Assembly (NCBI RefSeq): GCF_008271365.1
Contig: NZ_CP043430.1
Location: 1,302,001 to 1,366,000, forward strand
Direction of reading: 5' to 3'
DNA from: Microbacterium sp. 1S1
Lineage (GTDB): Bacteria; Actinomycetota; Actinomycetes; Actinomycetales; Microbacteriaceae
Length of the DNA stretch: 64,000 nt
The stretch's first letter is position 1. Every line of letters starts with the position of its first letter. Below, one piece after another: positions 47,676-64,000 of this stretch. The notes beneath the pieces were generated by a model. That model saw only the letters and a program-made list of their open reading frames with translations. It did no database searches and was not told the origin of the DNA. Position numbers and translations under genes: made by a program.

Positions 47676-48245
47676 ATGACCTCGCTCCTCACGGGCCCTG
47701 ATGGCCGCGTCCGCTGCGCCTGGGTGGGCGACGACGCCGAGTACCGCCGGTATCACGACGAAGAGTGGGGCACCCCCCTGCACGGCGATCGCGCGCTGTT
47801 CGAGAAGATGGCGCTCGAGGGATTCCAGGCGGGGCTGTCCTGGATCACGATCCTGCGGAAGCGCCCGCGGTTCCGCGAAGTGTTCGCCGGATTCGAGCCT
47901 GAGCGGGTGGCGGCGTTCGACGAGGGCGACGTGGAGAGGCTGATGACCGACACCGGGATCATCCGCAATCGCGCCAAGATCCTCGCGACGATCGGGAACG
48001 CGCGCATCGTGCAGGAGCTCGCCGACGGGGAGCTGGACGCGCTCATGTGGTCGTTCGCCCCGGAGCCGACGGGAGTCCGGCCGGCGACCTTCGCCGACGT
48101 GCCGGCCGTCACTCCGGAGTCGACCGCACTGAGCAAGGAGCTTCGGCGACGGGGCTTCCGTTTCGTGGGGCCGACGACCATGTACGCGCTGATGCAGTCC
48201 GCGGGCATGGTGGACGACCACATCGCGGGGTGCTGGCGCGCATGA
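47676..48245 (+). CDS. tag: DNA-3-methyladenine glycosylase I
   Basis: 189 residues. The Tag family signature is complete: zinc ligands in VRCAWVG (Cys) and YHDEEWG (His) near the N-terminus and HIAGC (His, Cys) at the C-terminus, and the alkyl-base pocket EGFQAGLSW. It removes 3-methyladenine from DNA. The ATG at 47676 lies 6 nt after TACGGT (47664-47669), so the mRNA is probably leaderless. A purine-rich stretch (47622-47655) precedes it. Longer upstream frames overlap the alcohol dehydrogenase gene. Confidence 0.93.
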   Translation: MTSLLTGPDGRVRCAWVGDDAEYRRYHDEEWGTPLHGDRALFEKMALEGFQAGLSWITILRKRPRFREVFAGFEPERVAAFDEGDVERLMTDTGIIRNRAKILATIGNARIVQELADGELDALMWSFAPEPTGVRPATFADVPAVTPESTALSKELRRRGFRFVGPTTMYALMQSAGMVDDHIAGCWRA

Positions 48246-48374: not shown

Positions 48375-51300
48375 ATGAAGGCGCTGTCCTGGATGCGGGC
48401 GCGACCCAAGACGCTGGCGTCCGCCGCCGGCGTGACCGTGGGCGTCATCGCGCTCACCACGATGGCCTTCACCTACGAGGGGTTCCCGACCACCAAGGTC
48501 GACCTCAACGACGGCGGCGTCTGGATCACGAAGACGTCGAGCCTGCTCGTCGGGCACTTCAACCACGAGTCGACGGTCCTGGACGGCGGTCTGCGTACGA
48601 CCAGTGAGGACTACGACATCCTGCAGGATGCGTCGAACGTGCTCGTCGTCGACGAGAGCGCGTCCACCGTGACCGCGGTCGACCCGGCCCGCGTCTCCCT
48701 CGGCGACTCCACCCTCATCCCCTCCAACGCCAAGGTCGCCCTCGGTGGCGACACCGCCGCCATCCTCGACCAGGACTCGGGCGATCTGTGGGTCGTGCCG
48801 GTGGAGGGCATCGCGTCGTTCGCGATCGAGGCCGCCGAACCCGTCGTCGAGCTGGGGGACGACTCCGACGTGACCGTCGCGCAGGACGGCACCGTCTTCG
48901 GCCTGTCCGGCGAGCGCGGCGAGGTCGTCACGGTGCCCGTCGACAACGAGGGCGCCCCCGGCGAGCCGTCCGCGGCGTCGGTCGGCGAGCTCGACGTGAG
49001 CGAGCGCCCCTCCATCACGGCCGTCGGCCGCACCCCGGTCGTGCTCGATCCGGCGGCGGGCGTCGTCACGTCGCCCGGCGGCTTCCGCACCGAGGTCGCG
49101 AACGTGGCCGACGCGGTGCTGCAGCATGCCTCGGCCGAGACCGACGCGGTGGCGCTGGCGACCCCGTCGGCCCTGGTCAGCGTGCCGCTGGACGGCAGCG
49201 AGCCGCAGGAGACCTCCGCCGGCGGCGAGGGGACCGCTGCGGCCCCGGTCTGGCTGCGCGGCTGCACCTACGGAGCCTGGGCCGGCTCGGCGACGTTCAT
49301 CCGCGAGTGCCCGGGCGACGGCGACGACGTGAACGCGCCGATCGACGGGGCCGAGGACTCGTCCAGCCTCACCTTCCGGGTGAACCGCGACGTCATCATC
49401 CTCAACGACGCGGTCGGCGGTGCCGCCTGGCTCGCCAACGAGAGCCTGCAGCGCGTCGACAACTGGAACGACCTCACGCCGCCGGAAGGCGAGACGGAGA
49501 ACCAGGAGGACTCGACGGAGGAGACGGTCGAGACCACCCTCCCCGAGCGCAGCGAAGAGAACACACCGCCGATCGCCGAGGACGATTCCTACGGCGTGCG
49601 ACCGGGGGCGACGACGCTGCTGCCGGTTCTGGACAACGACAACGACCCCGACGGCGACGTGCTGGTGGCGGCCCTCGCGGAGGCACAGCCGTCCATCGGG
49701 ACGGTGCAGCCGATCAACAACGGTGGCTCGCTGCAGATCGCGGTGGACGAGAACGCCTCCGGCACCGCGAGCTTCACCTACGAGGTCGACGACGGCCGCA
49801 AGGGCAAGGACACGGCGGTGGTCACGCTCACCGTGCGGGACTGGAGCGAGAACAAGGCCCCCGAGCCGAAGCGGAAGACGTCGCTGGCGGTGGAGACCGG
49901 CGGCACGATCTCGTACAACATCCTCCCGGACTGGATCGATCCGGACGGCGACGACATCTACCTGAAGGAAGTGGTCGCCGCCCCCGGAGACGAGGTGGAC
50001 TTCAGCCGCGACGGTCAGATGACGTACAAGGCCACCGCGAGCCTGCAGGGCCGCAAGGACATCATGGTCACGGTCGCCGACGCCTCGGGCGAAGTGGGCA
50101 CGGCGTCGATCGCGCTCGACGTGCGGCCGCAGGGCTCGACGAGCCCGAAGACGAACGCCGATCACGTGGTGACCCACGCCGGTGAGCAGGTCACCGTCGC
50201 GCCCCTCACGAACGACACGAGCACGAGCCGGGAGCAGCTCCGCCTGACCCGTGTGCTGGAGACCCCCGGGGCGACCATCGAGCCGAACACCCCGAACAAG
50301 ACGTTCACGTTCATGGCCCCGAACCCCGGGGTGTACTACGTGCAGTACCAGGTGTCCACCGGGCCGAAGAACGGCGAGGGGCTCGTGCGCGTCGACGTGA
50401 TGCCGGAGTCCGAGAACGACCTGCCCCCGGTCGCGGTCCGCGACGTGGCGCTGCTCCCCACGGGAGGTGACGTGCTGCTCGGCGTGCTCAACAACGACAC
50501 CGATCCCGCGGGCGGCATCCTCGTCGTGCAGTCCGTGTCGATGGACCCGAGCACCGGCATCTCGGTCTCCGTGCTCAACCACGAGACCCTCCGCATCACC
50601 GACCAGGGAGCGCTGGACGAGCCCGTCCGCATCGGCTACCGCATCTCGAACGGCTCGAAGTCGGCGGACGGCGAGGTGGTGGTGATCCCGATCCCCGCTC
50701 CGGACGAGATCCTGCCGCCGATCGCGAACCCGGACACGGCGACCGTCCGGACGGGCGACGTCGTGACCATCCCCGTGCTCGACAACGACTCGCACCCGAG
50801 CGACGACGTGATGCACGTCGAGCCCGAGCTCGTGGAGACGGTGGACCCCGACGACGGGGAGGCGTTCGTGTCGCAGGATACGGTGCGCTTCAAGGCCGGC
50901 TCCGAGGCGAAGACCGTCTACCTCACCTACGAGGTCTCCGACTCGCGGCAGCAGAAGGCCGCCGGATACGTCACGATCCAGATCCTGCCCGTCGACGAGG
51001 AGACCAACGCGGCGCCCCGTCCCAAGGACCTCACCGCCCGCGCCCTCGCCGGCAGCGACGTGGACATCGCGGTGCCGCTGGACGGGATCGACACGGACGG
51101 CGACTCGGTCGAGCTGCTCGGCATCGATTCGAGCCCGACCAAGGGTCGCATCACGACGGTCGGGCCCAACTACTTCACGTACGAGGCAGGCACAGACGCG
51201 TCCGGAGTCGACTCGTTCACCTATCGCGTGCGCGACCGCCTCGGCAAGGAGGGCGTCGCCACCATCCGTGTCGGCATCGCTCCCGCCGAGCAGGTCAACC

Positions 51301-54300
51301 AGGCGCCGTACGCGGTGAAGGATGCCGTCGTCGTGCGTCCGGGCCGCGAGATCGCGGTGCCGGTGCTGGAGAACGACTCCGACCCCGAGGGTGACAAGAT
51401 CGCTCTCGTCGAGGACGGTCTCGAGGTGCCGGAGAACCTCAAGGCCCGCGTCTCGGGGGACCGCGTGATCGTGACCGCGCCCGACAGCGAGGTGGAGACC
51501 TCCCTGCAGTACACCGTGAGCGATGCTCGCGGGGCGTCGTCCACCGCGACGCTGCAGATCACGGTCGACGAGGACGTGCCGCTGCAGGCCCCCGTCGCCC
51601 GGGACGACCGGCTGCAGCCCTCCGACCTGAAGGACGGCGGGCTCTCGGCCGACCTGGAGATCCTCAAGAACGACGAGGACCCCGACGGCACGAAGGACCG
51701 CCTCGACGTCGAGGTCGGCGCGGGCGGAACACTGCTCGAGAACGGGAAGGTGCGGGTCACCGTCACGGACGAGCTGCAGCTCATCCGCTACACGCTGACC
51801 GACCCGGACGGTCTGCAGGCCTCGGCCTTCATCTTCGTTCCCTCGCGCGACGGCCTGCGTCCCACCCTCACCTCGACCAAGCCCGTCGAAGTCGTGAGCG
51901 GTGAGACGAAGAAGCTGCCGCTGTCGGAGTACGTCACGGTTGCCGGCGGCGGGGAGGTGCGCATCACCGAGAAGGCGAAGGTGAGCGCGATCCATGCCGA
52001 CGGCGCGGACCTCCTGGTCGACGCCAGCACCCTGGTCTACACCTCGGCCGAAGGATACTTCGGCCCGGACGCCCTGACGTTCGAGGTGACGGACGGCGAC
52101 GGCCCGGACGACCCCGAGGGGCGGAAGGCGACGCTGAGCATCCCGATCAACGTGCTCCCGCCGGACAACCAGCAGCCGACCTTCATCTCGGGTCAGGTGG
52201 ATGTCGCCCCGGGCGAGGACGCGAGCGAACTCGATCTGGCCGCCCTCACCGACGACCCCGATCCCGAGGACAAGGGCGAGCACGAGTACACGTTCGTGGG
52301 CGGCGACGGGAACGGCATCTCGGCCCGCGTGGACGGCGACAAGCTCCTCGTCGAGGCGTCCTCGACCGCCAAGAAGGGTACCTCCGCCTCGCTCCAGATC
52401 CGCGTGACGGACGGCGAGACCGAGCCCGTCGACGGCACAGTGACCGCACGGGTGACGGCGTCCACGCGGGCGATGCCGACCGCGAACACCGACACGATCG
52501 CCGAGGCGGACGCGGGGCAGACGATCACCGTCCCCGCCCTCGCCAACGACTTCAACCCGTTCCCGGAGACCCCGCTGAAGATCGTCGGCGCGGTCACCGA
52601 GTCCGGCCGCGGCGAGGCGTCGTTCACCGACGACGAGGTCCGGGTCACCCCGGCCGAGGGTTTCGTCGGGACGCTCGTCGTGCGCTACCGCATTCAGGAC
52701 GCGACGCAGGATGTCGACCGCGAGGTCAACGGCCAGATCGTCGTGACGGTGCAGGACGTTCCGGAGGCCCCCGGCACCCCGGTCGTGACGAGCGTGCAGG
52801 ACCGCACCGTCGTGGTGTCGTACTCGGCGCCGTCGAACAACGGTGCGGTGATCGAGAAGTACACGGTGAAGTCCGTCGGCGGGAGCGCCTACTCCAAGGA
52901 GTGTTCGTCGACGACCTGCACCCTGGACGGGCTGACGAACAACGTCGAGTACACGTTCCAGGTGACCGCGACCAATCGCGTGGGCGAGTCGGAGCCCTCC
53001 GGCGTCTCCGAGGTCGCCCGCCCGGACGCCCGCCCCGACACCCCGAACCCCCCGACGCTGAAGTTCGGCGACAAGTCGCTGGAGGTCGCCTGGAAGACCC
53101 CGAGCACCCCGGGCTCCCCGGTCGAGCGCTACACGCTGGAGATCTCTCCCGCACCGCCCTCCGGGATCACGCAGAAGGAGGTCACGGGGAACTCCGTCAC
53201 GTGGGAGGGACTCGAGAACGGGTCGGACTACCAGGTGCGGGTGCAGGCCCACAACCGCGCCCCGGAGCCGTCGAGCTGGAGTGGGTGGTCGGCCTCCGAG
53301 ATCCCGGCCGGTCCGCCGATGGCCGCGGGGGCTCCCGCGACCAAGGAGCTCGAGCCGGTCGGCAACCAGGCGCAGATGCTCGTGAGCTGGACGCCGCCGA
53401 ACAACAACGGCGACGCGATCAGCGCGTACCAGCTTCAGGTCCTCGAGGGGGGTTCCGCGTTCCGGACCCTGACCCCCGGCGCCCAGGCGCAGAGCCAGGC
53501 CGTGACCGTTCCCACGTCCGAGTCGGCGTACACGTACCGCATCCGCGCCTACAACAAGGCCGGGTGGGGACCGTGGAGCGAGCAGTCGGCGCCACGTCGC
53601 GGGGTGACGCCCCCCGGTGCGCCCACGAGCCTCCGCGTGACGCAGGAACTCGATCGTGCCCTCGAGATCTCGTACCAGCAGGCGTCCCGCAACGGCGCCC
53701 GCACGGACGAGATCAGCTACCAGTACCGCCTCAACGGCGGGGACTGGAGGGGCCTGAGCGGCACCCGCATCGGCGGCCTCACGAACGGCCAGAACTACCG
53801 CGTCGAGCTGCGTGCCGTCGCGACGGTCGACGGCGTCACGTACTCGGGCGCGGTGTCGAACGCGGCGAACGGCAACCCGTACGGCAAACCGGGCACCCCG
53901 CAGGCCTCGGCCAGCGGCGGCGCGACCCAGGTCACGCTGAACTGGAACGCGAACGGCACCGCGAACGGTCGCGACATCACCCGCGTCCAGATCTCGATCG
54001 ACGGGGGCGGCTGGGAGGACGTCGGTATCTCCGGTTCCCGCACGGTCGGCAACGGCTACAACCAGGGCCACAGCATCCGCGTGCGCGCGCAGGATGCGGC
54101 GGGGCAGTGGACGCCCGAAGCGTCGGCCTCCGCGAGCTCGGGCCCACCCCCCGCGCCGCGGGCCTGGGTCACCCGGGGCACCTCGGGCTACTGGCCCGGA
54201 CAGTGCACCGACGGCACGTGTGCGAAGTTCGTCATCAACACCTCCAACTTCCCGGCCGGTCGCTACCAGGTGTATTGCAACAGCAACGCCCCGACGGCCG

Positions 54301-54443
54301 GTCCCCGGTTCGCCGGCGGCAGCAGCTGGAACATCCCGGCCAACGGCGCCATCGAGATCGGCTGCTTCCACGGTGCGGGCGGCCGGGGCTACCAGGTGTG
54401 GGTCACGATCGGCGGCACCGACTACGAACGAACGAACTGGTGA
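48375..54443 (+). CDS. Giant membrane-anchored surface protein with Ig-like and fibronectin type III repeats
   Basis: 2022 residues. An N-terminal membrane helix (about 14-33) anchors a large outside part: a repetitive 350-residue region resembling a propeller, then about eleven cadherin/Big-type Ig-like repeats (about 400-1440), each starting with an (A/P)P.A..D pattern and a LDND-(D/S)-PDGD-type calcium-site motif, then four to five FN3 domains (about 1470-1890), and a Cys-containing C-terminal domain with GQCTDGTC and IGCFHG. First gene of the cluster with MoxR, DUF58, transglutaminase-like protein, FHA, phosphatase and kinase. In bifidobacteria the FN3 protein of the equivalent cluster is proposed to sense or bind external ligands. 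The start ATG follows GGGAACCGGGA. Confidence 0.87.
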   Translation: MKALSWMRARPKTLASAAGVTVGVIALTTMAFTYEGFPTTKVDLNDGGVWITKTSSLLVGHFNHESTVLDGGLRTTSEDYDILQDASNVLVVDESASTVTAVDPARVSLGDSTLIPSNAKVALGGDTAAILDQDSGDLWVVPVEGIASFAIEAAEPVVELGDDSDVTVAQDGTVFGLSGERGEVVTVPVDNEGAPGEPSAASVGELDVSERPSITAVGRTPVVLDPAAGVVTSPGGFRTEVANVADAVLQHASAETDAVALATPSALVSVPLDGSEPQETSAGGEGTAAAPVWLRGCTYGAWAGSATFIRECPGDGDDVNAPIDGAEDSSSLTFRVNRDVIILNDAVGGAAWLANESLQRVDNWNDLTPPEGETENQEDSTEETVETTLPERSEENTPPIAEDDSYGVRPGATTLLPVLDNDNDPDGDVLVAALAEAQPSIGTVQPINNGGSLQIAVDENASGTASFTYEVDDGRKGKDTAVVTLTVRDWSENKAPEPKRKTSLAVETGGTISYNILPDWIDPDGDDIYLKEVVAAPGDEVDFSRDGQMTYKATASLQGRKDIMVTVADASGEVGTASIALDVRPQGSTSPKTNADHVVTHAGEQVTVAPLTNDTSTSREQLRLTRVLETPGATIEPNTPNKTFTFMAPNPGVYYVQYQVSTGPKNGEGLVRVDVMPESENDLPPVAVRDVALLPTGGDVLLGVLNNDTDPAGGILVVQSVSMDPSTGISVSVLNHETLRITDQGALDEPVRIGYRISNGSKSADGEVVVIPIPAPDEILPPIANPDTATVRTGDVVTIPVLDNDSHPSDDVMHVEPELVETVDPDDGEAFVSQDTVRFKAGSEAKTVYLTYEVSDSRQQKAAGYVTIQILPVDEETNAAPRPKDLTARALAGSDVDIAVPLDGIDTDGDSVELLGIDSSPTKGRITTVGPNYFTYEAGTDASGVDSFTYRVRDRLGKEGVATIRVGIAPAEQVNQAPYAVKDAVVVRPGREIAVPVLENDSDPEGDKIALVEDGLEVPENLKARVSGDRVIVTAPDSEVETSLQYTVSDARGASSTATLQITVDEDVPLQAPVARDDRLQPSDLKDGGLSADLEILKNDEDPDGTKDRLDVEVGAGGTLLENGKVRVTVTDELQLIRYTLTDPDGLQASAFIFVPSRDGLRPTLTSTKPVEVVSGETKKLPLSEYVTVAGGGEVRITEKAKVSAIHADGADLLVDASTLVYTSAEGYFGPDALTFEVTDGDGPDDPEGRKATLSIPINVLPPDNQQPTFISGQVDVAPGEDASELDLAALTDDPDPEDKGEHEYTFVGGDGNGISARVDGDKLLVEASSTAKKGTSASLQIRVTDGETEPVDGTVTARVTASTRAMPTANTDTIAEADAGQTITVPALANDFNPFPETPLKIVGAVTESGRGEASFTDDEVRVTPAEGFVGTLVVRYRIQDATQDVDREVNGQIVVTVQDVPEAPGTPVVTSVQDRTVVVSYSAPSNNGAVIEKYTVKSVGGSAYSKECSSTTCTLDGLTNNVEYTFQVTATNRVGESEPSGVSEVARPDARPDTPNPPTLKFGDKSLEVAWKTPSTPGSPVERYTLEISPAPPSGITQKEVTGNSVTWEGLENGSDYQVRVQAHNRAPEPSSWSGWSASEIPAGPPMAAGAPATKELEPVGNQAQMLVSWTPPNNNGDAISAYQLQVLEGGSAFRTLTPGAQAQSQAVTVPTSESAYTYRIRAYNKAGWGPWSEQSAPRRGVTPPGAPTSLRVTQELDRALEISYQQASRNGARTDEISYQYRLNGGDWRGLSGTRIGGLTNGQNYRVELRAVATVDGVTYSGAVSNAANGNPYGKPGTPQASASGGATQVTLNWNANGTANGRDITRVQISIDGGGWEDVGISGSRTVGNGYNQGHSIRVRAQDAAGQWTPEASASASSGPPPAPRAWVTRGTSGYWPGQCTDGTCAKFVINTSNFPAGRYQVYCNSNAPTAGPRFAGGSSWNIPANGAIEIGCFHGAGGRGYQVWVTIGGTDYERTNW

Positions 54444-54480
54444 CGGGCACTCCGTCCATCCGAGAGGAAGCAGTGACTCC

Positions 54481-55452
54481 ATGACAATGACCCCCGAGCA
54501 GGCCGCCTGGTTCCACGGCACCTTCCAGCGCCTGGTGGAGAACGTCGACAAGGCGGTGCAGGGCAAGCGCGAGATCGTCGGTCTCGTGCTGGCCTCGATG
54601 CTGGCGGAGGGCCACGTGCTCCTGGAGGACGCCCCTGGCACCGGCAAGACGAGCCTCGCGAAGGCCCTCGCCGCGACGGTGCAGGGCACGAGCGCGCGCA
54701 TCCAGTTCACGCCCGACCTGCTGCCCTCCGACGTGACGGGTGTGACGATCTACGACCAGCAGTCGCACCGGTTCGAGTTCCACAAGGGTCCGATCTTCGC
54801 GTCGATCGTGCTCGCCGACGAGATCAACCGCGCCTCCCCGAAGACGCAGTCCGCACTGCTCGAGGTCATGGAGGAGTCGCGGGTCACGGTCGACGGCGTC
54901 ACGCACGAGACGGGCCGCCCGTTCCTCGTGATCGCGACCCAGAACCCGGTGGAGCAGGCCGGAACGTACAAGCTGCCCGAAGCGCAGCTCGACCGGTTCC
55001 TCATCAAGACCTCGATCGGATACCCCGACCTCGCCGTGACCGAGAGCATCCTCGCCGGTGCCTCCGACCGCAACCCCTCCGCCGGCCTGTCGGCCATCAT
55101 CACCACGAGCGCCGTAGCCGACATGGCTGACCTCGCCGCCACCGTGCACGTCGAGCCCGCCGTACTCCGCTACGTCGCAGAGCTGGCGGAGGCGACGCGT
55201 GCCGACAGCGCCATCCGCCTGGGCGTCTCGGTGCGCGGAGCCATCGCGATGGTCCGCGTCGCCAAGGTGTGGGCAGCCGCCCAGGGCCGGCACTACGTGC
55301 TTCCCGACGACATCAAGGCGCTCGCCCGTCCGGTGTGGCAGCACCGCCTGCTGCTCGACGCCGAGGCCGAGTTCGCCGGCACGAGCAGCGAGACCGTCAT
55401 CGGCCGCGTGCTCGACGGCGTCGCGGCCCCCCAGGCGCGAACGGCGGCCTGA
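54481..55452 (+). CDS. MoxR family AAA+ ATPase
   Basis: 323 residues. Walker A APGTGKT (52-57 region, K56), Walker B VLADEIN (D113, E114), sensor 1 ATQNP and the MoxR lid domain. MoxR ATPases act as chaperones in maturation of protein complexes and typically pair with DUF58 proteins, as here: the DUF58 gene follows with a TGATG overlap. Start ATG at 54481, with AGAGGAAG 14 nt upstream; a second in-frame ATG lies two codons later. Confidence 0.93.
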   Translation: MTMTPEQAAWFHGTFQRLVENVDKAVQGKREIVGLVLASMLAEGHVLLEDAPGTGKTSLAKALAATVQGTSARIQFTPDLLPSDVTGVTIYDQQSHRFEFHKGPIFASIVLADEINRASPKTQSALLEVMEESRVTVDGVTHETGRPFLVIATQNPVEQAGTYKLPEAQLDRFLIKTSIGYPDLAVTESILAGASDRNPSAGLSAIITTSAVADMADLAATVHVEPAVLRYVAELAEATRADSAIRLGVSVRGAIAMVRVAKVWAAAQGRHYVLPDDIKALARPVWQHRLLLDAEAEFAGTSSETVIGRVLDGVAAPQARTAA

Positions 55453-56714
55453 TGACCGCGGAGGCCCTGCAGGCGCCGCCGGCGCCGACGGATCGCGACG
55501 CCGGGTGGCGGGACATCGCGGCCGTCGTCGGCGCGCGGGTCCTGGCGCGCCTCCGGCTCATCGCCGCCGCCGTCCGTCCGCTCGCCTGGGTGCTGATGGC
55601 GCTCGCGGTGGGCTTCTGGGTCCTCGGGCAGCTCGCCGGCTGGGTGGAGTTCACCGTGGCCGCCGTCGTGATCGCGATGGCGGTCGCCGTGTGCGCCCTG
55701 TTCCTCATCGGACGCACGGCGTACGACGTCTCGCTCGACCTGGCCCGCACCCGCGTGGTCGTGGGAGAGCGGGCGGTCGGCGCACTGACCCTCGCGAACC
55801 GGGGGACGCGGGCGATCCTGCCGTCGCGCGTCGTGCTGCCCGTGGGATCCGGCCGTGGCGAGTTCGGCATCCAGCGGCTCGCGCCGGGCGAGGAGGCCGA
55901 GGAGCTCTTCGCCATCCCCACCCACCGTCGCGGCGTCGTGAAGGTCGGACCGGTGAGCGTCGTGCGCGGCGATCCGCTCGGGCTGTTCGAACGGGCGCAT
56001 CGGCGAGATGAGCCGGTGGACCTCTTCGTCCACCCCCGCACGGTCCTCTTCGACGGCCAGTCGCTCGGCTACCTGCGCGACCTCGAAGGGCTCCCGGCGG
56101 CCGACCTCTCCCGCGACGACGTCTCCTTCCACGCCCTGCTCGAGTATCAGCCGGGAGACGACCTCCGGCACGTGCACTGGCGCTCGACCGCGCGCACCGG
56201 CACGATGATGGTCCGCCAGTACGAGGAGACACGGCGCTCGCACTTCGTGATCGGCCTGTCCCGGTCCGCCGCCGACTACGACACCGCGGACGACTTCGAG
56301 CTCGGCATCTCCGCAGCCGGGTCGATCGGGCTCCGGGCACTGCGCGACTCGCAGCGCGTCGACCTCCGCGTGCAGGGGCGCGAACTGCCGTCGGGCACGG
56401 GGAAGCAGCTCCTCGACTCCCTTTCCGCGGTGGAGCACAGCAAGCCGCGGGAGGGCGGGATCGCCGAACTCGCCGGTGTCGTGGCCGCCACGATGCCCCT
56501 CGCGAGCGTGGTCGTACTCGTCTGCGGCTCGCGGGTGCGCGCCGACGACCTCCGTCTGGCCTGCTCCCGGTTGCCGTTCGGCGCCCGCGTGCTGGCCGTG
56601 GTCACCGACACCACCGCGTCCGCCCCGTCCCTGCGCCGGATCGGCGAGGCGGACGTCGTCACCGTCGGCGCGCTGGAGCAGCTCCCGCTCGCGCTGCAGA
56701 AGGTTCTCGCATGA
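55452..56714 (+). CDS. DUF58 domain membrane protein
   Basis: 420 residues. Two N-terminal membrane helices (LAWVLMALAVGFWVLGQLAG and FTVAAVVIAMAVAVCALFLI) are followed by a beta-rich section and the DUF58 core, DDVSFHALLEYQPGDDLRHVHWRSTAR, where the RxYxxGDxxRxIxW-type motif reads LEYQPGDDLRHVHW, then KTGTMMVRQYE-like. DUF58 folds resemble von Willebrand A domains, a MoxR partner. Overlaps moxR by TGATG and the next gene by ATGA. Confidence 0.92.
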   Translation: MTAEALQAPPAPTDRDAGWRDIAAVVGARVLARLRLIAAAVRPLAWVLMALAVGFWVLGQLAGWVEFTVAAVVIAMAVAVCALFLIGRTAYDVSLDLARTRVVVGERAVGALTLANRGTRAILPSRVVLPVGSGRGEFGIQRLAPGEEAEELFAIPTHRRGVVKVGPVSVVRGDPLGLFERAHRRDEPVDLFVHPRTVLFDGQSLGYLRDLEGLPAADLSRDDVSFHALLEYQPGDDLRHVHWRSTARTGTMMVRQYEETRRSHFVIGLSRSAADYDTADDFELGISAAGSIGLRALRDSQRVDLRVQGRELPSGTGKQLLDSLSAVEHSKPREGGIAELAGVVAATMPLASVVVLVCGSRVRADDLRLACSRLPFGARVLAVVTDTTASAPSLRRIGEADVVTVGALEQLPLALQKVLA

Positions 56715-59113
56715 CCGCGTCCGCTCCGGCACCGGGCGGCCTCGCCCTGCGCCGCTGGATCCTCGACCTCGCGGCCAGCGTGCTGCTCATGGTCACGGCC
56801 CTGGTCGGCTTCTGGCCGACGTTCGCCGGGCCCTCGTTCCTTCCCGCTGTGGTGGGCGGCATGCTGCTCGGCCTCGCGATCGCGGCCGTCGCCGCCTGGC
56901 GCCGGTGGGGCATCCTCATCGTCACGGGGCTGACGCTCGCCGCCTACTTCCTCTTCGGCGGGGCGCTCGCCGTACCGCAGACGGCCATCCTGGGCGTGAT
57001 CCCGTCGCTGGAGACGCTGCAGAAGCTCGCCGTGGGCACGGTCACGTCATGGAAGCAGATGCTGACGACCGTCGCCCCGGTCGCGGCGGCGGACGGTCAC
57101 CTCATCGTCCCCTTCCTGCTGTCGCTGGTGTTCACCGTGGTGACGGCCTCCCTCGCGCTGCGCCTGGACCGGGTGGCCTGGGCACTGATCCCCGCGGGCG
57201 TGCTGTTCATGCTCGTCATCGCCCTCGGCACGCCGGAGCCGGCCTTCCCGCTCGTGCAGGGGCTCGTCTTCGCCGTGGTGAGCATGGCATGGCTCGCGCT
57301 GCGTCAGCTGTGGGCGCCGCAGAACATGGCGGTCTCGGTGAGCGAGGTCGATCCCGCACGGGCCGCCCACATGCGCACCCGACGCCTGCTCGCGGGGGTG
57401 GCCGTGCTGGCCGTCGCCGGGGGCGCCGGCGTCGCCACGAGTGCGATCGCCTCCCCCGCGCAGCCGCGGCACGTCTTCCGCGACGTGATCATCCCGCCCT
57501 TCGACATCCGCGACTACCCCAGCCCCCTGCAGGCGTTCCGCAAGAACGTGCGCGACGACGCCGACGAAACGCTGTTCACGGTGCAGGGGCTGCCCAAGGG
57601 CGCCCGCATCCGCACAGCCGTCATGGATCAGTTCGACGGCATGGTCTACAACGTCACCGACGGCGGTCCGACCTCGTCGAGCGCCTTCTCTCCTCTCCGG
57701 TCGAACATGGCGCCGGAGGCCGAGGGCGTGCCCGTCACGCTGAAGATCGCCATCGACGGCTACCGCGGCGTCTGGATGCCGACTGCCGGCGAGCTGGCGG
57801 AGATCCGGTTCGACGGCGACCGCGCCGAGGACCTGCGGCGGGGTACCTACGTCAACACGGCGACCGGCACCGCGGTCGCGACCCCCACGCTCGGGAAGGG
57901 CGACGAGTACGCGGTCGACGCGATCCTCCCCACGCAGCCCGACGACAAGCAACTGGCCGAGGTACCGTTCGGCCGCGTCACGATGCCGAAGCCGAGCAAC
58001 GTGCCGGAGGAGCTGACCTCGCTCGCCGCCGAGACCGTGGCCGGTGCCGAGACCCCGATCGAGCAGGTGCGCGCGCTGGAGAACTTCCTCGCCGAGGGGG
58101 GCTTCTTCAGCCACGGCCTGGAGGGCGAGGTGCTGTCCCGCGCCGGGCACACGGCCGAGCGCATCTCGACGCTGGTCGGCGCCGATCAGATGATCGGCGA
58201 CGACGAACAGTACGCGGTCGCCATGGCCCTGCTCGCCGGCCAGCTCGACATCCCGGCGCGGGTCGTCATGGGGTACTACCCGGACGAGGAGCAGGCCGAC
58301 GCGGCGGTGTTCGAGGCCACGGGCGACACCGTGCACGCGTGGGTCGAGGTGAACTTCGACGGCGTCGGCTGGGTGACCTTCAACCCGACGCCGCCCGAGG
58401 ACCAGGTGCCCAACGACCAGAACACGAAGCCGCGGGTGGACCCGAAGCCGCAGGTGCTGCAGCCGCCGCCTCCCCCGCAGGAGCCGGTCGACCTGCCGCC
58501 CACGCTGCCCGACGACCGCGAGTCCGAGGACGAGACGCTCAACCTCGCGGAGATCATCGGAGTGATCCTCCTCATCGGCGGGATCTCGCTCGCGGTCATC
58601 GCCCTGCTCATGTCACCGTTCATCGTCATCGGCGCGTGGAAGGCCGCGCGTCGCCGTTCACGCCGATCGGCTCCTCGCACCGCCGACCGCATCAGCGGCG
58701 GCTGGGACGAGCTGACCGACCGGGCGATCGACTACGGCGCCCGACTGGCTCCGAACGGCACGCGGGGGGAGGAGGCCGCTGTCGTCGCCTCGACGCTCAC
58801 GGTGCCGCGGGTGACCGGACTGGCCGCGCGCGCCGACGCCGAGGTCTTCGGGCCCACCGAGCCCACTCCCCAGGACGTGGACGCCTTCTGGCAGGAGGTC
58901 GATGAGATCGTCGGCGGCCTGGGCGAGGAGGCCGGGTTCTGGAAGCGCGTCAAGGCACGCCTGAGCCTGCGCTCGCTGCTGGGCGGCAGCGCCGTCTCGC
59001 AGGGCTTCCAGAGCCTGAAGGACGCCGCGGCCGCCCGAGTGCGGCGCGAACCTGGCACCATCGAGAGCAACAAGGACACGACGCCGTCGTCCTCCGAGAG
59101 GGAGACCCCATGA
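56711..59113 (+). CDS. TgpA-like transglutaminase-fold membrane protein, catalytic residues not conserved
   Basis: 800 residues. About seven N-terminal membrane helices (20-250), an extracytoplasmic transglutaminase-like domain (about 260-570), a Pro-rich linker, one further helix (about 613-640) and a cytoplasmic tail. In active members the Cys-His-Asp triad reads GDCEQ, HAW and DPT. Here the positions are GDDEQ (D498), VHAW (H542) and FNPT (N558): Cys is Asp and Asp is Asn, so peptide cross-linking is unlikely. A structural or binding role is inferred. Coupled to its neighbours by ATGA overlaps. Confidence 0.9.
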   Translation: MTASAPAPGGLALRRWILDLAASVLLMVTALVGFWPTFAGPSFLPAVVGGMLLGLAIAAVAAWRRWGILIVTGLTLAAYFLFGGALAVPQTAILGVIPSLETLQKLAVGTVTSWKQMLTTVAPVAAADGHLIVPFLLSLVFTVVTASLALRLDRVAWALIPAGVLFMLVIALGTPEPAFPLVQGLVFAVVSMAWLALRQLWAPQNMAVSVSEVDPARAAHMRTRRLLAGVAVLAVAGGAGVATSAIASPAQPRHVFRDVIIPPFDIRDYPSPLQAFRKNVRDDADETLFTVQGLPKGARIRTAVMDQFDGMVYNVTDGGPTSSSAFSPLRSNMAPEAEGVPVTLKIAIDGYRGVWMPTAGELAEIRFDGDRAEDLRRGTYVNTATGTAVATPTLGKGDEYAVDAILPTQPDDKQLAEVPFGRVTMPKPSNVPEELTSLAAETVAGAETPIEQVRALENFLAEGGFFSHGLEGEVLSRAGHTAERISTLVGADQMIGDDEQYAVAMALLAGQLDIPARVVMGYYPDEEQADAAVFEATGDTVHAWVEVNFDGVGWVTFNPTPPEDQVPNDQNTKPRVDPKPQVLQPPPPPQEPVDLPPTLPDDRESEDETLNLAEIIGVILLIGGISLAVIALLMSPFIVIGAWKAARRRSRRSAPRTADRISGGWDELTDRAIDYGARLAPNGTRGEEAAVVASTLTVPRVTGLAARADAEVFGPTEPTPQDVDAFWQEVDEIVGGLGEEAGFWKRVKARLSLRSLLGGSAVSQGFQSLKDAAAARVRREPGTIESNKDTTPSSSERETP

Positions 59114-60423
59114 CGCAGCCCGCGCTCGAACAGATCGCGCCGATCTCCCGCCGTGCCATCGCCTACCTGATCGACGCCGCGATCGCCGGCGTGCTCGGCG
59201 CCCTGCTCGGCGGGGCACTGGTGCTCGTGGCGCAGTTCTCCGGGAGCCTGGAGGCGATGCTGACCACCCTGCTCATCGGGGCGCCGATCGTGGGCCTGCT
59301 GCTGCTCGCCTGGTTCGTCGTGTACACGGTGATGCAGACCGGCGCTGGCTCCGTCGGGATGCGCCTGCAGCGGCTGCGGCTCGTGTCGGCGGCCGACGGC
59401 TCAGCGATCGGCTTCGGTCGGGCGCTGCTGCGCAACATCGTGTTCGGGCTGGCCGGTGCGATCGTGGTCGGCTACTTCAGCCCGCTCTTCGACGGGTCGG
59501 GACGGTTCCAGGGCTGGCACGACAAGGCGGTCGGGTCGCTGATGCTCGATGCCGAGGTCCCGGCCCCGGAGCCCGAGCCGGAGCCCGTCCCGGTCGAGGA
59601 GGCTCCGCCGCTGCTGCCGGCCCCCTCGTTCGAGCGGCTCCCTCCCGCGCCGATGCCCGGGTTCGCCCCGGCCGGTGCGCCCGCCGCTCCCGCGGCGACC
59701 CCTGCGGCGCCCGTCGGCTCTCCCGCAACGACCGCAGCGCCGCCCCTGCCGACGTCTGACTCCGGGATGATCGCGTACGTGCCGGGGATCACCCAGGGCT
59801 CACGCCCGGTGCGCCCGCCGATGCCGCCCGCCCCGGCGACTCCCGCCGCGGAGACTCCCGCGTCCACGGACACCGCGCCCCCTGCTGCCCCGCCGGCACC
59901 TCCCGCTCCCGCGGCTGCTCCCGCTCCCGCGGCTGCTCCCGCTCCCGCGGCTGCTCCCGCCACTCCGTCCGCCGTGCCCGCGCCGCCCGCCCCGCCGGCC
60001 GCGGCGGTCCGCGCTCCTGTGGCGGCACCCGGCGCGGCCGCCACTCCGGCCACCGTGACCGAGGACGACGACCTCGAGGAGACGCGCATCAGCATCCCCG
60101 GTCACCGGCTCGTGTTCACGTGGGATGACGGCACCCGGATCCCGGTCTCGCGCCGGACGGTCTTCGGGCGCAACCCCGCAGTGGAGGAGGGCGCGACCGT
60201 GGTGCCCGTGCGCGACGAGACGCTCTCGCTGTCGAAGACGCACTTCGAGGCCGCGTCCGAGACCTCCGGCGGCTGGGTGCTCGACCGGCACTCGACCAAC
60301 GGCCTGACCATCGTGCGCGACGGGCAGCGGATCGCGTGCCCGCCCGGGCAGCGCGTCCCGATCCGGCTCGGCGACGTCATCGAGATCGGCGACCGGGTCG
60401 TGATGGTCGGAGGCTACGCATGA
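59110..60423 (+). CDS. RDD-family membrane protein with C-terminal FHA domain
   Basis: 437 residues. RDD domain with three helices (about 10-145; ISRRAIAYLIDAAIAGVLG, QTGAGSVGMRLQRLRLV), a 190-residue Pro/Ala linker containing three identical PAPAAA units encoded by an exact 18-bp repeat (59901-59957), and an FHA domain (about 345-437) with FGRNP, SLSKTHFE and DRHSTNG, the phosphothreonine-binding residues. It probably tethers phosphorylated partners of the cluster kinase to the membrane. ATGA overlaps on both sides. Confidence 0.9.
   Translation: MTQPALEQIAPISRRAIAYLIDAAIAGVLGALLGGALVLVAQFSGSLEAMLTTLLIGAPIVGLLLLAWFVVYTVMQTGAGSVGMRLQRLRLVSAADGSAIGFGRALLRNIVFGLAGAIVVGYFSPLFDGSGRFQGWHDKAVGSLMLDAEVPAPEPEPEPVPVEEAPPLLPAPSFERLPPAPMPGFAPAGAPAAPAATPAAPVGSPATTAAPPLPTSDSGMIAYVPGITQGSRPVRPPMPPAPATPAAETPASTDTAPPAAPPAPPAPAAAPAPAAAPAPAAAPATPSAVPAPPAPPAAAVRAPVAAPGAAATPATVTEDDDLEETRISIPGHRLVFTWDDGTRIPVSRRTVFGRNPAVEEGATVVPVRDETLSLSKTHFEAASETSGGWVLDRHSTNGLTIVRDGQRIACPPGQRVPIRLGDVIEIGDRVVMVGGYA
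59901..59957 (+). repeat. Three exact 18-bp repeats in the RDD-FHA linker
   Basis: TCCCGCTCCCGCGGCTGC repeats about three times in phase with the reading frame, encoding alternating Pro/Ala. Copy number could vary by slippage without a frameshift. Confidence 0.8.
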
Positions 60424-61238
60424 GCGCCCCGCTCCTCGTGTCCACCGGCGCGGCCACGCACTCCGGACTCCGTCGTCCTCTGAACGAGGACTCCTACATG
60501 GCCTCGGCACCGTTGTTCCTCGTGGCCGACGGCATGGGCGGACACGAGGCGGGGGAGCGCGCGAGCGCGGCCGTGATCGACGAGTTCGCCCGCTACATCG
60601 GCCGCACCGACCTCGAACTCGACGATCTGCTCGAGGCGTTGGCTCGGGCGCGGCAGGCCGTCGAGGACCTGTCCACCGCGGGGAACGGTCGAGCGGGGAC
60701 CACCCTGAGCGGCGTCGTGGTCGCCTCGGTCGAGGGCATGGGTTACTGGCTCACCGTCAACATCGGCGACTCCCGCACCTACCGTTTCGCGGACGGGGAG
60801 CTGGAGCAGATCAGTGTCGATCACTCCGTCGTGCAGGAGCTCATCGAGTCGGGCGAGCTGACGGCCGAGGAGGCGGCGACCGACCGCCGTCGCAACATCA
60901 TCACGCGGGCGATCGGGGCCAGCAGCACGGGCGACGCCGACTACTGGCTGTTCCCTGCCGAGCTCGGCGACCGGATGCTGGTGTGCTCCGACGGGCTCAC
61001 CACCGAGGTTCCCGACGAGCGCATCCGCCAGATCCTCGCCGCGGAGCCCGACCCGCAGCGCGCCGCCGACGTCCTCATCGACGAGGCCGTGCAGTCCGGG
61101 GGCCGCGACAACATCACCGTGGTCGTCGTGGACGCCGTGTCGGTCGCCTCACGACCGGGCACGCGCCTCCTGTCCGACGACACCGACATCGACGCCGACA
61201 CGCGCCCGCGCGAGGCCGCAGCAGGAGGGGTTCGCTGA
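60420..61238 (+). CDS. PP2C family protein serine/threonine phosphatase
   Basis: 272 residues. PP2C motifs are complete: RRPLNEDSY, LVADGMGGHEAGE (metal Asp), GDSRTYR, VCSDGLT and SGGRDNITVVVV (metal Asp). It would dephosphorylate proteins modified by the kinase encoded downstream, as in PstP/PknB pairs. The cytoplasmic enzyme has no membrane helix, unlike PstP. Start ATG overlaps the previous stop (ATGA); stop overlaps the next start. Confidence 0.93.
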   Translation: MSAPLLVSTGAATHSGLRRPLNEDSYMASAPLFLVADGMGGHEAGERASAAVIDEFARYIGRTDLELDDLLEALARARQAVEDLSTAGNGRAGTTLSGVVVASVEGMGYWLTVNIGDSRTYRFADGELEQISVDHSVVQELIESGELTAEEAATDRRRNIITRAIGASSTGDADYWLFPAELGDRMLVCSDGLTTEVPDERIRQILAAEPDPQRAADVLIDEAVQSGGRDNITVVVVDAVSVASRPGTRLLSDDTDIDADTRPREAAAGGVR

Positions 61239-62566
61239 TGCAGACGAGTTACCGACCGGGACAGTGGTACCTGATCGTCATCCCCGGCGCCCTGGTGGCG
61301 CTGCCGCCGGACGTCCCCGGAGCCACCGTCACGGCGCTGTGGGAACGTCTGCCCGCCGAGCGCAGCCTCGCGACGGTCATCGACGTGCTCACGACGCAGG
61401 CCGGCGGATCGTTCGCCGCCATGCCGTCGTTCGTGGCCGCGGTGCTGGAGGGCGCGGATGCGCGGGTCGCCGTCCGCGGTCCGCTGACCGTGCGCGTGAC
61501 CGGGGGCGAGACTTCTGCGGCCGCTTTCTCGGGCGCGGACGTGACCACCTGGAGCGAGCGTTTCGTGCCCGGCGCCGCGACGATCGAGCTCACCGTCGAG
61601 GAGGACGGCAGCGGCACCGCGCTCCCGGTCCACGCGGGCATCGTGCTCGCGGCGGCGGTCACCGCGGACATCGAGCCGGCCGATGCCGACACCGTGCTCG
61701 ACAGCGCCGGACCGGCGCCGGTACTCGACGAGTCCGTGCGCCCGACACCGCCCGCCACGGACGCCGCCCCGCAGGCCACCGCGCCCCCCGTCTCCGGGCT
61801 GCCCGCGGCGCCCGTGCCCGGCACCTCCGTGCCGCTGCCGCCCCCGCCTGTCGTCGCGCCTGTGCCGGCGGCGGCGGAGGAGGAGCCGTCCGTCCCGGAG
61901 GAAGAGACGGAGTCGCCGACGCCGGTGACCGACGACGCGGTGATCGAGGCGACGCTCGTACCCACCGAAGCGACCTTCGCGCCTCCGGTGGACGAGTTCG
62001 ACCACCTCTGGGGCGAGACCGTGCACACACCCATCGAGGCCGCCGCTGTGCGCCCGAGCGAGGAGCCCGAGCCGGCCGCCGCCGACCCGGCCGTCGTGGA
62101 TCCCGGAGGCGACCACGACGGCTCGACGATCTCCGCCGCCGATCTGCGCGAGCTCCGCCAGCAGCCGGCCGCCGCGCCGGACGCACCGACCGAGGTCATC
62201 CCGGTGGCCGAACCCGCCGCGGTCGCCGCCGGGCGCATCCGCGTCTCGACCGGCCAGGTCGTCACGCTCGACCGCACCGTCATCATCGGCCGCCGCCCGC
62301 GGTCCACCCGCGCCAGTGGGACGAACATGCCGCACTTGATCGCGGTCGACAGTCCCCAGCAGGACATCTCGCGCAGCCACCTCGAGGTGCGACCGGAGGG
62401 CGACACGGTCGTCGTCATCGACCTGCACACGACCAACGGTTCGACGCTGCTCCGCCCCGGGGCCGACCCCGTCCGGCTGCACCCGGGCGAGCAGACGCTC
62501 GTGCTGTCCGGCGACGTGGTCGACCTGGGCGACGGGGTGACTGTCGCCTTCGAGGACCTGCCGTGA
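61238..62566 (+). CDS. FHA domain protein
   Basis: 442 residues. An N-terminal domain of about 150 residues (GQWYLIVIPGALVALPPDVPG onward) of unknown fold is followed by an acidic, Pro/Ala-rich low-complexity region (150-325) and a C-terminal FHA domain (about 335-440) with IIGRRPRS, ISRSHLEV and TTNGS. FHA domains bind phosphothreonine, so it is a likely substrate or adaptor of the cluster kinase. GCAGGAGGGG precedes the ATG at 61238, which overlaps the phosphatase stop. Confidence 0.9.
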   Translation: MQTSYRPGQWYLIVIPGALVALPPDVPGATVTALWERLPAERSLATVIDVLTTQAGGSFAAMPSFVAAVLEGADARVAVRGPLTVRVTGGETSAAAFSGADVTTWSERFVPGAATIELTVEEDGSGTALPVHAGIVLAAAVTADIEPADADTVLDSAGPAPVLDESVRPTPPATDAAPQATAPPVSGLPAAPVPGTSVPLPPPPVVAPVPAAAEEEPSVPEEETESPTPVTDDAVIEATLVPTEATFAPPVDEFDHLWGETVHTPIEAAAVRPSEEPEPAAADPAVVDPGGDHDGSTISAADLRELRQQPAAAPDAPTEVIPVAEPAAVAAGRIRVSTGQVVTLDRTVIIGRRPRSTRASGTNMPHLIAVDSPQQDISRSHLEVRPEGDTVVVIDLHTTNGSTLLRPGADPVRLHPGEQTLVLSGDVVDLGDGVTVAFEDLP

Positions 62567-64000
62567 GCCGTCGCCCCTCCCCGCCGCCCGCCCTCCCCGG
62601 CTTCACGTACGTGGAGCCGCTGGGCACCGGTGGCTTCGCGGACGTCTTCCTGTACGAGCAGGAGATGCCGCGGCGCCGGGTCGCGGTCAAGGTGCTGCTC
62701 GCCGATCGCATCTCCAGCGGTGCGGCGCAGGAGTTCGCCGACGAGGCGAACGTCATGGCCATGCTGTCCACCCACCCCGCGATCGTCACGATCTACCAGG
62801 CGGGAGTCGCAGGAGACGGCCGCCCCTACCTCGTGATGGAGTACTGCCCCCGGCCGAACCTGCAGCTCCGTTCCCGCAAGGAGCCGTTCTCGGTGGCCGA
62901 GGCGTTGCGCGTGGGCATCCAGGTCGCGGGCGCGGTGGAGACCGCTCACCGCGCCGGCGTCCTGCACCGGGACATCAAGCCCGCCAACATCCTCGTCACG
63001 GAGTACAACCGTCCCGCGCTGACTGACTTCGGCATCGCGTCCACGACGGGCGCGACCGGCGAGTCCTCGGGCATGTCGATCCCGTGGTCCCCGCCCGAGT
63101 CGTTCGCCGAGCCGCCGCAGAGCGGCCCCCGCACCGATGTGTGGGCTCTCGGCGCCACGCTGTACACCCTGCTCGCCGGGCGGTCGCCGTTCGAGCGTCC
63201 GGGAGAGCGCAACTCCAGCGCCGACCTCATCGAGCGCATCGAGCGGGCGGCGCTGCCGGCGCTCGCCCGACCGGACTCCCCGGAGAGCCTGCAGCGGCTG
63301 CTCGAGCGGGCGATGGCGAAGAATCCGGACGACCGGTTCCCCAGCGCCGTGGCCTTCGCCCGCGCCCTGCAGAAGATCCAGATCGAGCTCTCCCACTCGG
63401 TGACGCCGATCGACATCGTCGACGACCACCCGCCTGCGGAGGATCTGGAGGACGACAACGACGGTCTCACGCGGGTGCGGGAGATCGTCAGCATCGACCC
63501 CGGTATGGCCTCCACCTCGACCCGTCCGTCCGCGGCCACGCAGCCGAAGGGGCCTGCTGTCGTCGTGCCGGACGCGCCCCGGTTCACGCTCCCCGTGCGC
63601 GTCGACGATGCCGTGGAGCAGACCCAGCGCCGCGATGCCGCTGCGAATTCCGCGGTCGCCACCCCGGAGGCTCCCGTCGCGCCGGCGGCGCCCGGCCCTG
63701 ACCGCGACGACCGGACCATCCTCCGACCGCCGCAGGTCGTACACCCGGAGGCCGCTCCCGTGCCGGCGCCGTCACCCGCGCCGGCCGCCGAACCCGCCGC
63801 GCCGGCACCGGCCGCCGACACCGTCGCGCCGGAGAAGCCGCGGTCCCGCCGCGGACTCTGGATCGGCCTGGCCGCTGCGGCGGTCGTGATCGTCGTCGGC
63901 GGCATCGTCGGCCTCAACCTCCTCGTCGCCGGGCTCGCGCCGGAACCGGCGCCCGAGACCACCGAGGCGGCGGTGGATCCGCAGGACCCGGTGTCCGACG
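62563..64000 (+). CDS. Membrane serine/threonine protein kinase (Hanks type), 3' end outside window
   Basis: 479 residues visible. Kinase domain about 14-280: Gly loop LGTGGFADV, VAVKVL (K43), E61, catalytic loop HRDIKPANIL (D137), DFG at 155-157 and WSPPESF in place of APE. A Pro/Ala-rich juxtamembrane region (about 290-425) leads to one membrane helix (about 430-455); the rest would be extracellular. GTG start overlaps the FHA stop (GTGA). Resembles Pkb2-type kinases of the bifidobacterial FN3 cluster; likely phosphorylates the FHA proteins upstream. Confidence 0.93.
   Translation, partial: MSRRPSPPPALPGFTYVEPLGTGGFADVFLYEQEMPRRRVAVKVLLADRISSGAAQEFADEANVMAMLSTHPAIVTIYQAGVAGDGRPYLVMEYCPRPNLQLRSRKEPFSVAEALRVGIQVAGAVETAHRAGVLHRDIKPANILVTEYNRPALTDFGIASTTGATGESSGMSIPWSPPESFAEPPQSGPRTDVWALGATLYTLLAGRSPFERPGERNSSADLIERIERAALPALARPDSPESLQRLLERAMAKNPDDRFPSAVAFARALQKIQIELSHSVTPIDIVDDHPPAEDLEDDNDGLTRVREIVSIDPGMASTSTRPSAATQPKGPAVVVPDAPRFTLPVRVDDAVEQTQRRDAAANSAVATPEAPVAPAAPGPDRDDRTILRPPQVVHPEAAPVPAPSPAPAAEPAAPAPAADTVAPEKPRSRRGLWIGLAAAAVVIVVGGIVGLNLLVAGLAPEPAPETTEAAVDPQDPVSD

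Follow-up and report, generated by a model that had tools for sequence, protein, structure and literature searches.

We describe here a gene cluster of Microbacterium sp. 1S1 that encodes a giant surface protein, a MoxR ATPase, a DUF58 protein, a transglutaminase-like protein (TGL), two FHA-domain proteins, a PP2C phosphatase, and a Ser/Thr kinase. The cluster lies at the end of a 64,000-nucleotide stretch of DNA (the window), which is part of the single 3.4-Mb contig NZ_CP043430.1 (C1); the genome coordinate on C1 is the window position plus 1302000. We consider it somewhat probable that this cluster, which shares its core genes with the PFNA operon of Bifidobacterium, forms the upstream half of a type VII secretion system (T7SS) locus of undescribed layout and supplies its envelope and regulatory parts, because its gene overlaps continue into a gene for an EssC-like ATPase and because such linkage, in the same orientation, recurs in nine families. 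No link between the PFNA operon and type VII secretion was found in one search of the open-access literature that combined the two subjects; the two PFNA papers it listed do not contain the words "type VII secretion". If the reading is correct, a signaling operon known from gut bifidobacteria would be half of a little-described secretion machine, and two separate literatures, one on PFNA (host-commensal signaling and cytokine-binding FN3) and one on type VII secretion variants, would be joined by a hypothesis testable for both.

A preliminary description, made from the letters of the window, had proposed an operon of eight genes. All eight open reading frames (ORFs) were found where it had placed them, none with an internal stop, and the Pfam families agreed with those proposed (Table 1), with the qualification that the FHA match of the RDD-FHA protein (19.1 bits) was slightly below the Pfam cut-off of 20.7. 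The overlaps reported from moxR onward were also present, by 1 or 4 bases at every junction, and the DUF58 gene has a TGATG start at its junction with the MoxR gene; the giant gene and moxR are separated by a gap of 37 bases, with no overlap. The eight genes thus stood, but the extent of the operon did not. The kinase stop codon is located 257 bases past the window (64257, or L003:1758), inside the ATGA that starts an FHA-like gene, and the end of that gene is a GTGA that starts a gene for a 1490-aa EssC-like protein. Because of these overlaps the operon is longer than eight genes and comprises at least ten, the giant gene included. The ATPase had been missed because the window ends within the kinase gene. 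About 300 bases further on, the same strand carries a WXG100 gene.

The EssC-like protein was compared with curated T7SS models and scored below the cut-offs of both, with 522.6 bits for EssC (cut-off 778.4) and 359.7 bits for EccCa (cut-off 509.15). Its nearest solved relatives by sequence were 4nh0 and Bacillus subtilis YukB (9qks). A profile of its N-terminal 90 or so residues matched the redesigned ubiquitin 2mlb with a whole-sequence E value of 5.2e-4, which is a match of sequence only. The WXG100 protein was recognized by Pfam (1.2e-14; 54.8 bits, cut-off 27.3) and by NCBIfam (44.8 bits, cut-off 44.85), and the 241-aa FHA-like protein had no Pfam match at E<=0.01. Judged by sequence, the locus contains what generally identifies a T7SS, namely an EccC/EssC-type FtsK ATPase (its gene outside the window and its score below the curated cut-offs) and a WXG100 gene. 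Beyond the WXG100 gene, at L003:9054-11342 on the minus strand, is a gene for a 762-aa protein with a weak T7SS-signal match (7.4e-5, below the cut-off), a possible substrate.

EssC-like matches of any T7SS type (E<=1e-60) were present in 190 of the 297 genomes of the order. Linkage was counted on the listed matches only, which comprised 149 EssC and 150 TGL places. Among the matches listed, 92 genomes had both an EssC and the cluster TGL gene, and 76 of them had both on one contig. The EssC was within 25 kb of the TGL gene in 52 of these 76, representing nine families, whereas about 1 was expected from random placement; all 52 linked pairs were co-oriented. This count missed EssC-like frames beside five other loci, on the same strand in L068 and L071 and on the other strand in L103, L115, and L123. 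Among 60 regions fetched around TGL genes, a strong EssC match was found on the TGL strand in 11 and on the other strand in 3; such regions often stop short of the expected EssC start. The FHA-like gene was matched in 24 of the 60, always on the TGL strand. The EssC-like frames found in L103 and L115 are very divergent and branch together.

To describe the layout, 20 regions selected as linked were examined; by their selection they show the arrangement of linked loci and not its frequency. The order TGL, RDD-FHA, PP2C, FHA, kinase, FHA-like, EssC was found in 14 of them. One region (L258) had the same gene set with the RDD-FHA gene preceding TGL, four (L254, L263, L265, L267) had TGL followed directly by EssC, and in L270 EssC was upstream of the giant. 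In 46 of the 47 named loci with both genes, the FHA-like gene followed the kinase gene, and in 36 it overlapped the kinase stop by 4 bases. An RDD-FHA gene adjoined EssC in two genomes with the cluster elsewhere (L272, L273). In three genomes of the window's family (L268-L270) the linked EssC was of a second, divergent type with a different N-terminus, so exchange of the motor is possible. On the TGL tree, parsimony favored a linked ancestor (6 changes versus 8); six candidate "unlinked" tips had been dropped for want of direct evidence.

Several results weigh against a fixed association. Among the matches listed, EssC was more than 25 kb away in 24 of the 76 same-contig genomes, and within the genus of the window 5 genomes were linked and 5 were not (G265, G280, G448, G482, G492). 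The opposite strand of the EssC-like frames in L103, L115, and L123 shows that co-orientation is not universal. EssC was matched in only 34 of 80 window-like loci, several of which end early, and WXG100 in 11 of 21 regions examined for layout. EssC without the giant also exists (L271, in a genome with no match to the giant N-terminus). The cluster of G280 has an RDD-FHA gene of its own (L065), which weakens the argument from split loci. The parsimony margin fell to 6 versus 7 changes without L124 and L205, and 28 of the 72 tips were scored as unknown for linkage. The main counter-evidence comes from bifidobacteria, in which 10 of 15 genomes with PFNA had only FtsK-like matches and no EssC. In addition, 6 of 20 regions found by searching with the giant (L225, L228-L231, L241) contained a lone giant, nothing else from the cluster being matched within the roughly 20 kb. 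Because there are unlinked genomes, EssC without the giant, giants alone, and bifidobacteria without EssC, we conclude that PFNA and EssC are often coupled, probably since long ago, but that the coupling is not obligatory.

In the remaining five bifidobacterial genomes EssC was full-length in three (in G364 and G419 its distance to the cluster was 34 kb) and in pieces in two (about 47 kb away in G405). A WXG100 gene was present in all ten bifidobacterial genomes tested. Six genomes (G377, G433, G491, G501, G541, G511) had no EssC match and yet had a WXG100 gene, which was either located on a different contig or separated from the PFNA cluster by more than 700 kb. The gene order in ten bifidobacterial (f68) regions was kinase, FN3, MoxR, DUF58, TGL, followed in some by PP2C; MoxR was unmatched in L090. 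The phosphoketolase of G377, a genome of this group, is nearly identical to PDB 3ahc, which we take to be a B. breve protein.

The preliminary description had accepted the transglutaminase-like protein as such; alignment showed that its catalytic Cys is absent. The Cys was missing from all 72 examined TGLs linked to a surface protein, bifidobacteria included, and present in 20 of 20 MoxR-DUF58-TGL cassettes without this linkage. The 72 consist of the TGLs of the 60 fetched regions, 10 from giant-seeded regions, L205, and the window. In each of the 60 fetched regions (up to 20 kb) a surface protein was matched on the same strand as the TGL, and the Cys was absent from every one; in L078, L108, and L124 the largest giant frame was shorter than 1400 aa. 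Because these regions had been found by similarity to Cys-free queries, the giant-seeded search was performed; it gave a TGL in 10 of 20 regions, and again none of the ten had the Cys. Among 21 loci around other TGLs (the paralogue L004 and L205-L224), all with MoxR-DUF58-TGL, 20 kept the Cys and had no surface-protein, kinase, or EssC match. The exception was L205, whose TGL was without the Cys and was accompanied by an FN3 protein, a kinase, and EssC. L004 (C1:120000-134000) is a second cassette in the same genome; its TGL (C1:127220-127591) has an intact Cys, and no giant or kinase was matched there, which makes it a positive control provided by nature. The 80 window-like loci had been found with a pattern that demanded a Cys-free motif; for this reason they were left out when the Cys was counted and served only for alignments, folds, giant counts, and junctions.

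A tree of the 92 TGLs, made without the triad columns, had one branch (SH-aLRT 100) that split the 72 Cys-lost from the 20 Cys-kept proteins. Because the loss is a single event on this tree, the 72 and the 20 amount to a single, long-maintained evolutionary contrast and do not count as 92 independent ones; several of the 72 are near copies. The protein around the lost site remained conserved. Residues G496, E499, Q500, R517, G521, W544, E546, W554, and P561 were 94–100% conserved in the 72, as were the membrane-proximal R253, P262, and P263 and the cytosolic-tail R685, F713, and W727, which were present in 0–20% of the Cys-kept relatives. The AlphaFold2 model of residues 256-600 (pLDDT 88.8, pTM 0.85) matched TgpA (6g4h, E 1.9e-14). 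Since the catalytic Cys is lost while the fold and scaffold residues are conserved, TGL is predicted to be a pseudoenzyme that has kept the fold and lost the known chemistry. Activity through the Asp, Glu, or Ser that replaces the Cys, or through some other residue, would agree with the TgpA-like fold and with the Ser found at this position in 18 of the 72 copies. We regard it as very improbable, because the column is mixed (Asp in 31, Ser in 18, Glu in 10, Ala in 8, Gly in 5), the His is kept in only 23 copies, and the third triad position varies freely, yet the scaffold is nearly invariant. All 13 bifidobacterial copies examined had GDSEQYA at the Cys site and a replaced His.

These results correct the annotation of PFNA, in which the "transglutaminase" has no Cys nucleophile in any linked copy examined. 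The protein is presumed to be a cysteine protease in the PFNA report PMC8430577; work directed at cross-linking would probably miss its role, since the nucleophile is lacking. A transglutaminase fold that is probably dead and yet kept throughout a clade, alongside a kinase, phosphatase, and ATPase that look intact, offers a clean system for studying what this fold does in a membrane machine.

The surface protein was examined for domain content. The preliminary description had counted about eleven Ig-like repeats, and the profile search gave 11 Big_9 domains, with one extra very weak match each to the Ig and FN3 profiles that overlapped neighboring domains. The AlphaFold2 model of residues 40-400 (pLDDT 87.1, pTM 0.84) was a beta-propeller; Foldseek gave 795 PDB matches at E<=0.001, headed by the YVTN propeller 1l0q, from an archaeal surface-layer protein with PKD domains, and BamB. 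The C-terminus (...GGTDYERTNW) had no hydrophobic tail by inspection, and inspection of the sequence suggests a type II topology with the N-terminus inside. The number of Ig domains was 11 in 120 of 146 giants and 10–12 in 144, in a set that includes the window-like loci and is biased to close relatives. In a broad set (L065-L124), 57 giants longer than 1400 aa had 11 in 39 cases, 10 in 16, 9 in 1, and 8 in 1. The FN3 number ranged from 1 to 7. For the 39 broad-set giants with exactly 11 Ig domains, repeat i best matched window repeat i in 409 of 429 cases, and the window giant's own Ig repeats had a mean identity of only 27%. This near-constant number and the position-by-position matching indicate that the stalk is an ancient rod with repeats fixed in position, in contrast to surface repeats whose copy number rises and falls. 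According to the predictions, the giant combines a propeller anchored in the membrane with an Ig stalk of nearly constant length. Tandem giants occur elsewhere (e.g., G448, G483, G366; L244). The calcium-type motifs noted earlier in the Ig repeats were set aside as a novel feature: DxD motifs are present, and they are ordinary for Big_9 and cadherin-like domains.

Table 1. Features of the cluster and of its continuation past the window (window coordinates)
Feature	Position	Strand	Basis
Giant surface protein, 2022 aa: N-terminal membrane anchor, beta-propeller, 11 Ig (Big_9), 5 FN3, Cys-containing C-terminal domain	48375..54443	+	ORF, Pfam (Big_9/fn3), domain counts
N-terminal transmembrane helix, residues ~13-32, after basic residues	48411..48470	+	sequence inspection
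Membrane-proximal beta-propeller, residues ~44-371, no Pfam call	48504..49487	+	AlphaFold2, Foldseek
Stalk of 11 Ig-like (Big_9) domains, residues 396-1449	49560..52721	+	profile counts
Five FN3 domains, residues 1464-1924	52764..54146	+	profile counts
MoxR AAA+ ATPase, Walker A and B intact	54481..55452	+	Pfam (AAA_3), alignment
DUF58 protein	55452..56714	+	Pfam (DUF58)
Membrane pseudo-transglutaminase (predicted), predicted cytosolic tail	56711..59113	+	Pfam (TgpA_N, Transglut_core); TgpA-like fold of residues 256-600
Codon of Asp498, catalytic Cys position (GDDEQYA vs e.g. GYCEQFA)	58202..58204	+	alignment
Codon of His542, second triad position, kept here and in 23/72 linked copies	58334..58336	+	alignment
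Codon of Asn558, third triad position (Asp or Glu in Cys-bearing relatives)	58382..58384	+	alignment
RDD membrane domain fused to FHA domain	59110..60423	+	Pfam (RDD; sub-threshold FHA)
PP2C phosphatase	60420..61238	+	Pfam (PP2C)
FHA protein with conserved unnamed N-terminal domain	61238..62566	+	Pfam (FHA)
Ser/Thr kinase, catalytic motifs intact	62563..64000, on to 64257	+	Pfam (Pkinase), motif check
FHA-like protein, 241 aa	64254-64979 (outside window)	+	starts in kinase ATGA; FHA-like motif by eye
EssC-like ATPase, 1490 aa	64976-69448 (outside window)	+	FHA and FtsK/SpoIIIE domains by Pfam
WXG100 gene	69765-70061 (outside window)	+	Pfam, NCBIfam

The idea in the preliminary description of an envelope machine read by phosphosignaling is reasonable, and the following model extends it to secretion. 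The EssC-like protein would be the motor for WXG100-type substrates, and the stalk of the giant would carry the FN3 region across the wall. The kinase may phosphorylate threonines that are read by the FHA domains of RDD-FHA, the second FHA protein, the FHA-like protein, and EssC, assembling or switching the machine, and PP2C would clear these marks and reset it. MoxR with DUF58 could remodel or gate the membrane complex. The dead TGL domain might act outside the cytoplasm in docking or sensing, and the conserved cytosolic tail of the protein would couple it to MoxR-DUF58. Where a lineage has no EssC nearby, the module would persist as a split locus or alone. It is possible, and we propose it only tentatively, that the whole is an undescribed T7SS subtype of Actinomycetales with PFNA core parts (an EssC with ubiquitin-like and FHA domains, a trans-wall stalk of propeller and 11 Ig domains, MoxR-DUF58, and a pseudo-transglutaminase), from which bifidobacterial PFNA, an operon investigated so far for sensing immune signals of the host, would be derived, with the EssC partner lost in most species.

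Two other readings leave secretion out. The cluster could be a stand-alone PFNA operon for signaling or adhesion, in which the giant is an adhesin or sensor whose state is reported by the kinase, phosphatase, and FHA proteins, and the T7SS is a frequent but functionally separate neighbor. The bifidobacterial genomes that keep PFNA without EssC agree with this, as do two results cited in PMC12607495: the FN3 protein of B. bifidum S17 mediates adhesion, and TNF-alpha activates the PFNA genes in B. longum GT15. We nevertheless think this reading unlikely, because EssC is within 25 kb in 52 of the 76 same-contig genomes, always co-oriented among the matches listed, whereas about 1 was expected from random placement, and because the translational overlaps reach as far as EssC. 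Alternatively, in line with the preliminary description, which had MoxR/DUF58 maturing the giant, MoxR, DUF58, and TGL may assemble and maintain the giant surface fiber at the membrane, with TGL as a non-catalytic scaffold and no role in secretion. In the 60 fetched regions the giant, DUF58, and TGL were matched in all and MoxR in 57, which makes them more constant than the kinase, phosphatase, and FHA genes, and MoxR is a substrate of the PFNA kinase in B. longum (PMC8430577). This leaves the EssC linkage unexplained, and the giants that stand without any other cluster gene do not fit it, so that we judge it quite improbable.

Compared with PFNA of Bifidobacterium (pkb2-fn3-aaa-atp-duf58-tgm, with prpC, a hypothetical gene, and fha in some species), the window has all five core genes, the phosphatase, and FHA. 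The kinase, FN3 giant, MoxR, DUF58, and TGL genes are clustered, as had been proposed when the locus was called PFNA-type; the gene order differs, the kinase being last (eighth) in the window and first in the published order. The RDD-FHA fusion, the extra FHA proteins, and the continuation into the EssC-like ATPase also set the window apart. Two FHA proteins had been named as additions to PFNA. Both the RDD-FHA fusion and the second FHA protein are present, but one FHA gene is not an addition, since the published eight-gene clusters of four Bifidobacterium species include an FHA gene, along with the phosphatase prpC (PMC8430577). The mycobacterial moxR operon has been compared with PFNA (PMC12067865).

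Among T7SS variants, the closest likeness was to T7SSd and T7SSe, as described in the main text of Garrett et al. 2024 (PMC11217815). Both have an EssC-like ATPase with FHA, WXG100, a membrane kinase, and an Ig-rich giant, and T7SSe also has a phosphatase and an FHA protein. The window locus adds MoxR, DUF58, and the predicted pseudo-transglutaminase. TsdI of T7SSd has a signal peptide and a C-terminal helix, whereas the window giant appears to have an N-terminal helix and no C-terminal one. T7SSd has no ubiquitin-like component; in the window locus a putative ubiquitin-like domain is fused to EssC, and a separate ubiquitin-like T7SS component is described in the same paper, as are a vWA protein in T7SSc and an AAA+ protein in T7SSf. 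The words MoxR, transglutaminase, and fibronectin do not occur in that main text, nor do Microbacteri, Arthrobacter, or Bifidobacterium as spelled here (the abstract has "Bifodobacterium"). T7SSb (Yuk/Ess) shares the FHA-bearing EssC, and its wall-spanning extracellular component is EsaA (PMC11217815); the EssC-like protein of the present locus falls short of the EssC model cut-off given above, and an active-looking kinase stands in place of the pseudokinase EssB. EssA, EssB, and EsaA were not found among the locus ORFs scanned, with no genome-wide search made, and EccB, EccD, EccE, and MycP of T7SSa/ESX were not found among the downstream ORFs scanned, the whole genome not being searched. The TGL fold is common to TgpA of Pseudomonas aeruginosa (6g49, 6g4h), and the catalytic MoxR-DUF58-TGL cassettes have the same gene order but keep the Cys and had no giant, kinase, or EssC match in the 20 examined. 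In MoxR-vWA-beta-propeller ternary systems (PMC7159879), MoxR is reportedly found beside a protein with a beta-propeller; this is an analogy only, as the window propeller is probably extracytoplasmic, on a membrane stalk.

The 5' neighbor of the giant gene is an ORF with a methyladenine glycosylase match that ends at 48245. A promoter scan found no site, and five terminator-like sites were found, all on the minus strand (2.4 expected). PF20030 matched the MoxR protein (2.1e-10) more weakly than the general AAA models did. In the DUF58 protein (window 55452-56714) an Asp that is kept in 20 of 20 catalytic cassettes is replaced by Ser, and it is lost in 47 of 73 giant-linked copies. Decay may have reached a second site here; loss of the metal site was nevertheless not counted as another dead site, because the catalytic controls themselves do not have the full DxSxS motif. 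An FN3-like domain in the kinase tail was weak (63 of 77 tails at E<=1), and an anti-phage function was rejected, because the PADLOC matches seem to reflect general similarity to kinases, AAA proteins, and PP2C. In G280, the genome of L065, another PFNA-like TGL match consists of two pieces (G280:C1:2512696-2515125), each within a 1164-aa frame. Finally, a contig filed under Stenotrophomonas maltophilia P13 (L168) carries a Microbacterium-like TGL with 58% identity to that of the window and is probably contamination.

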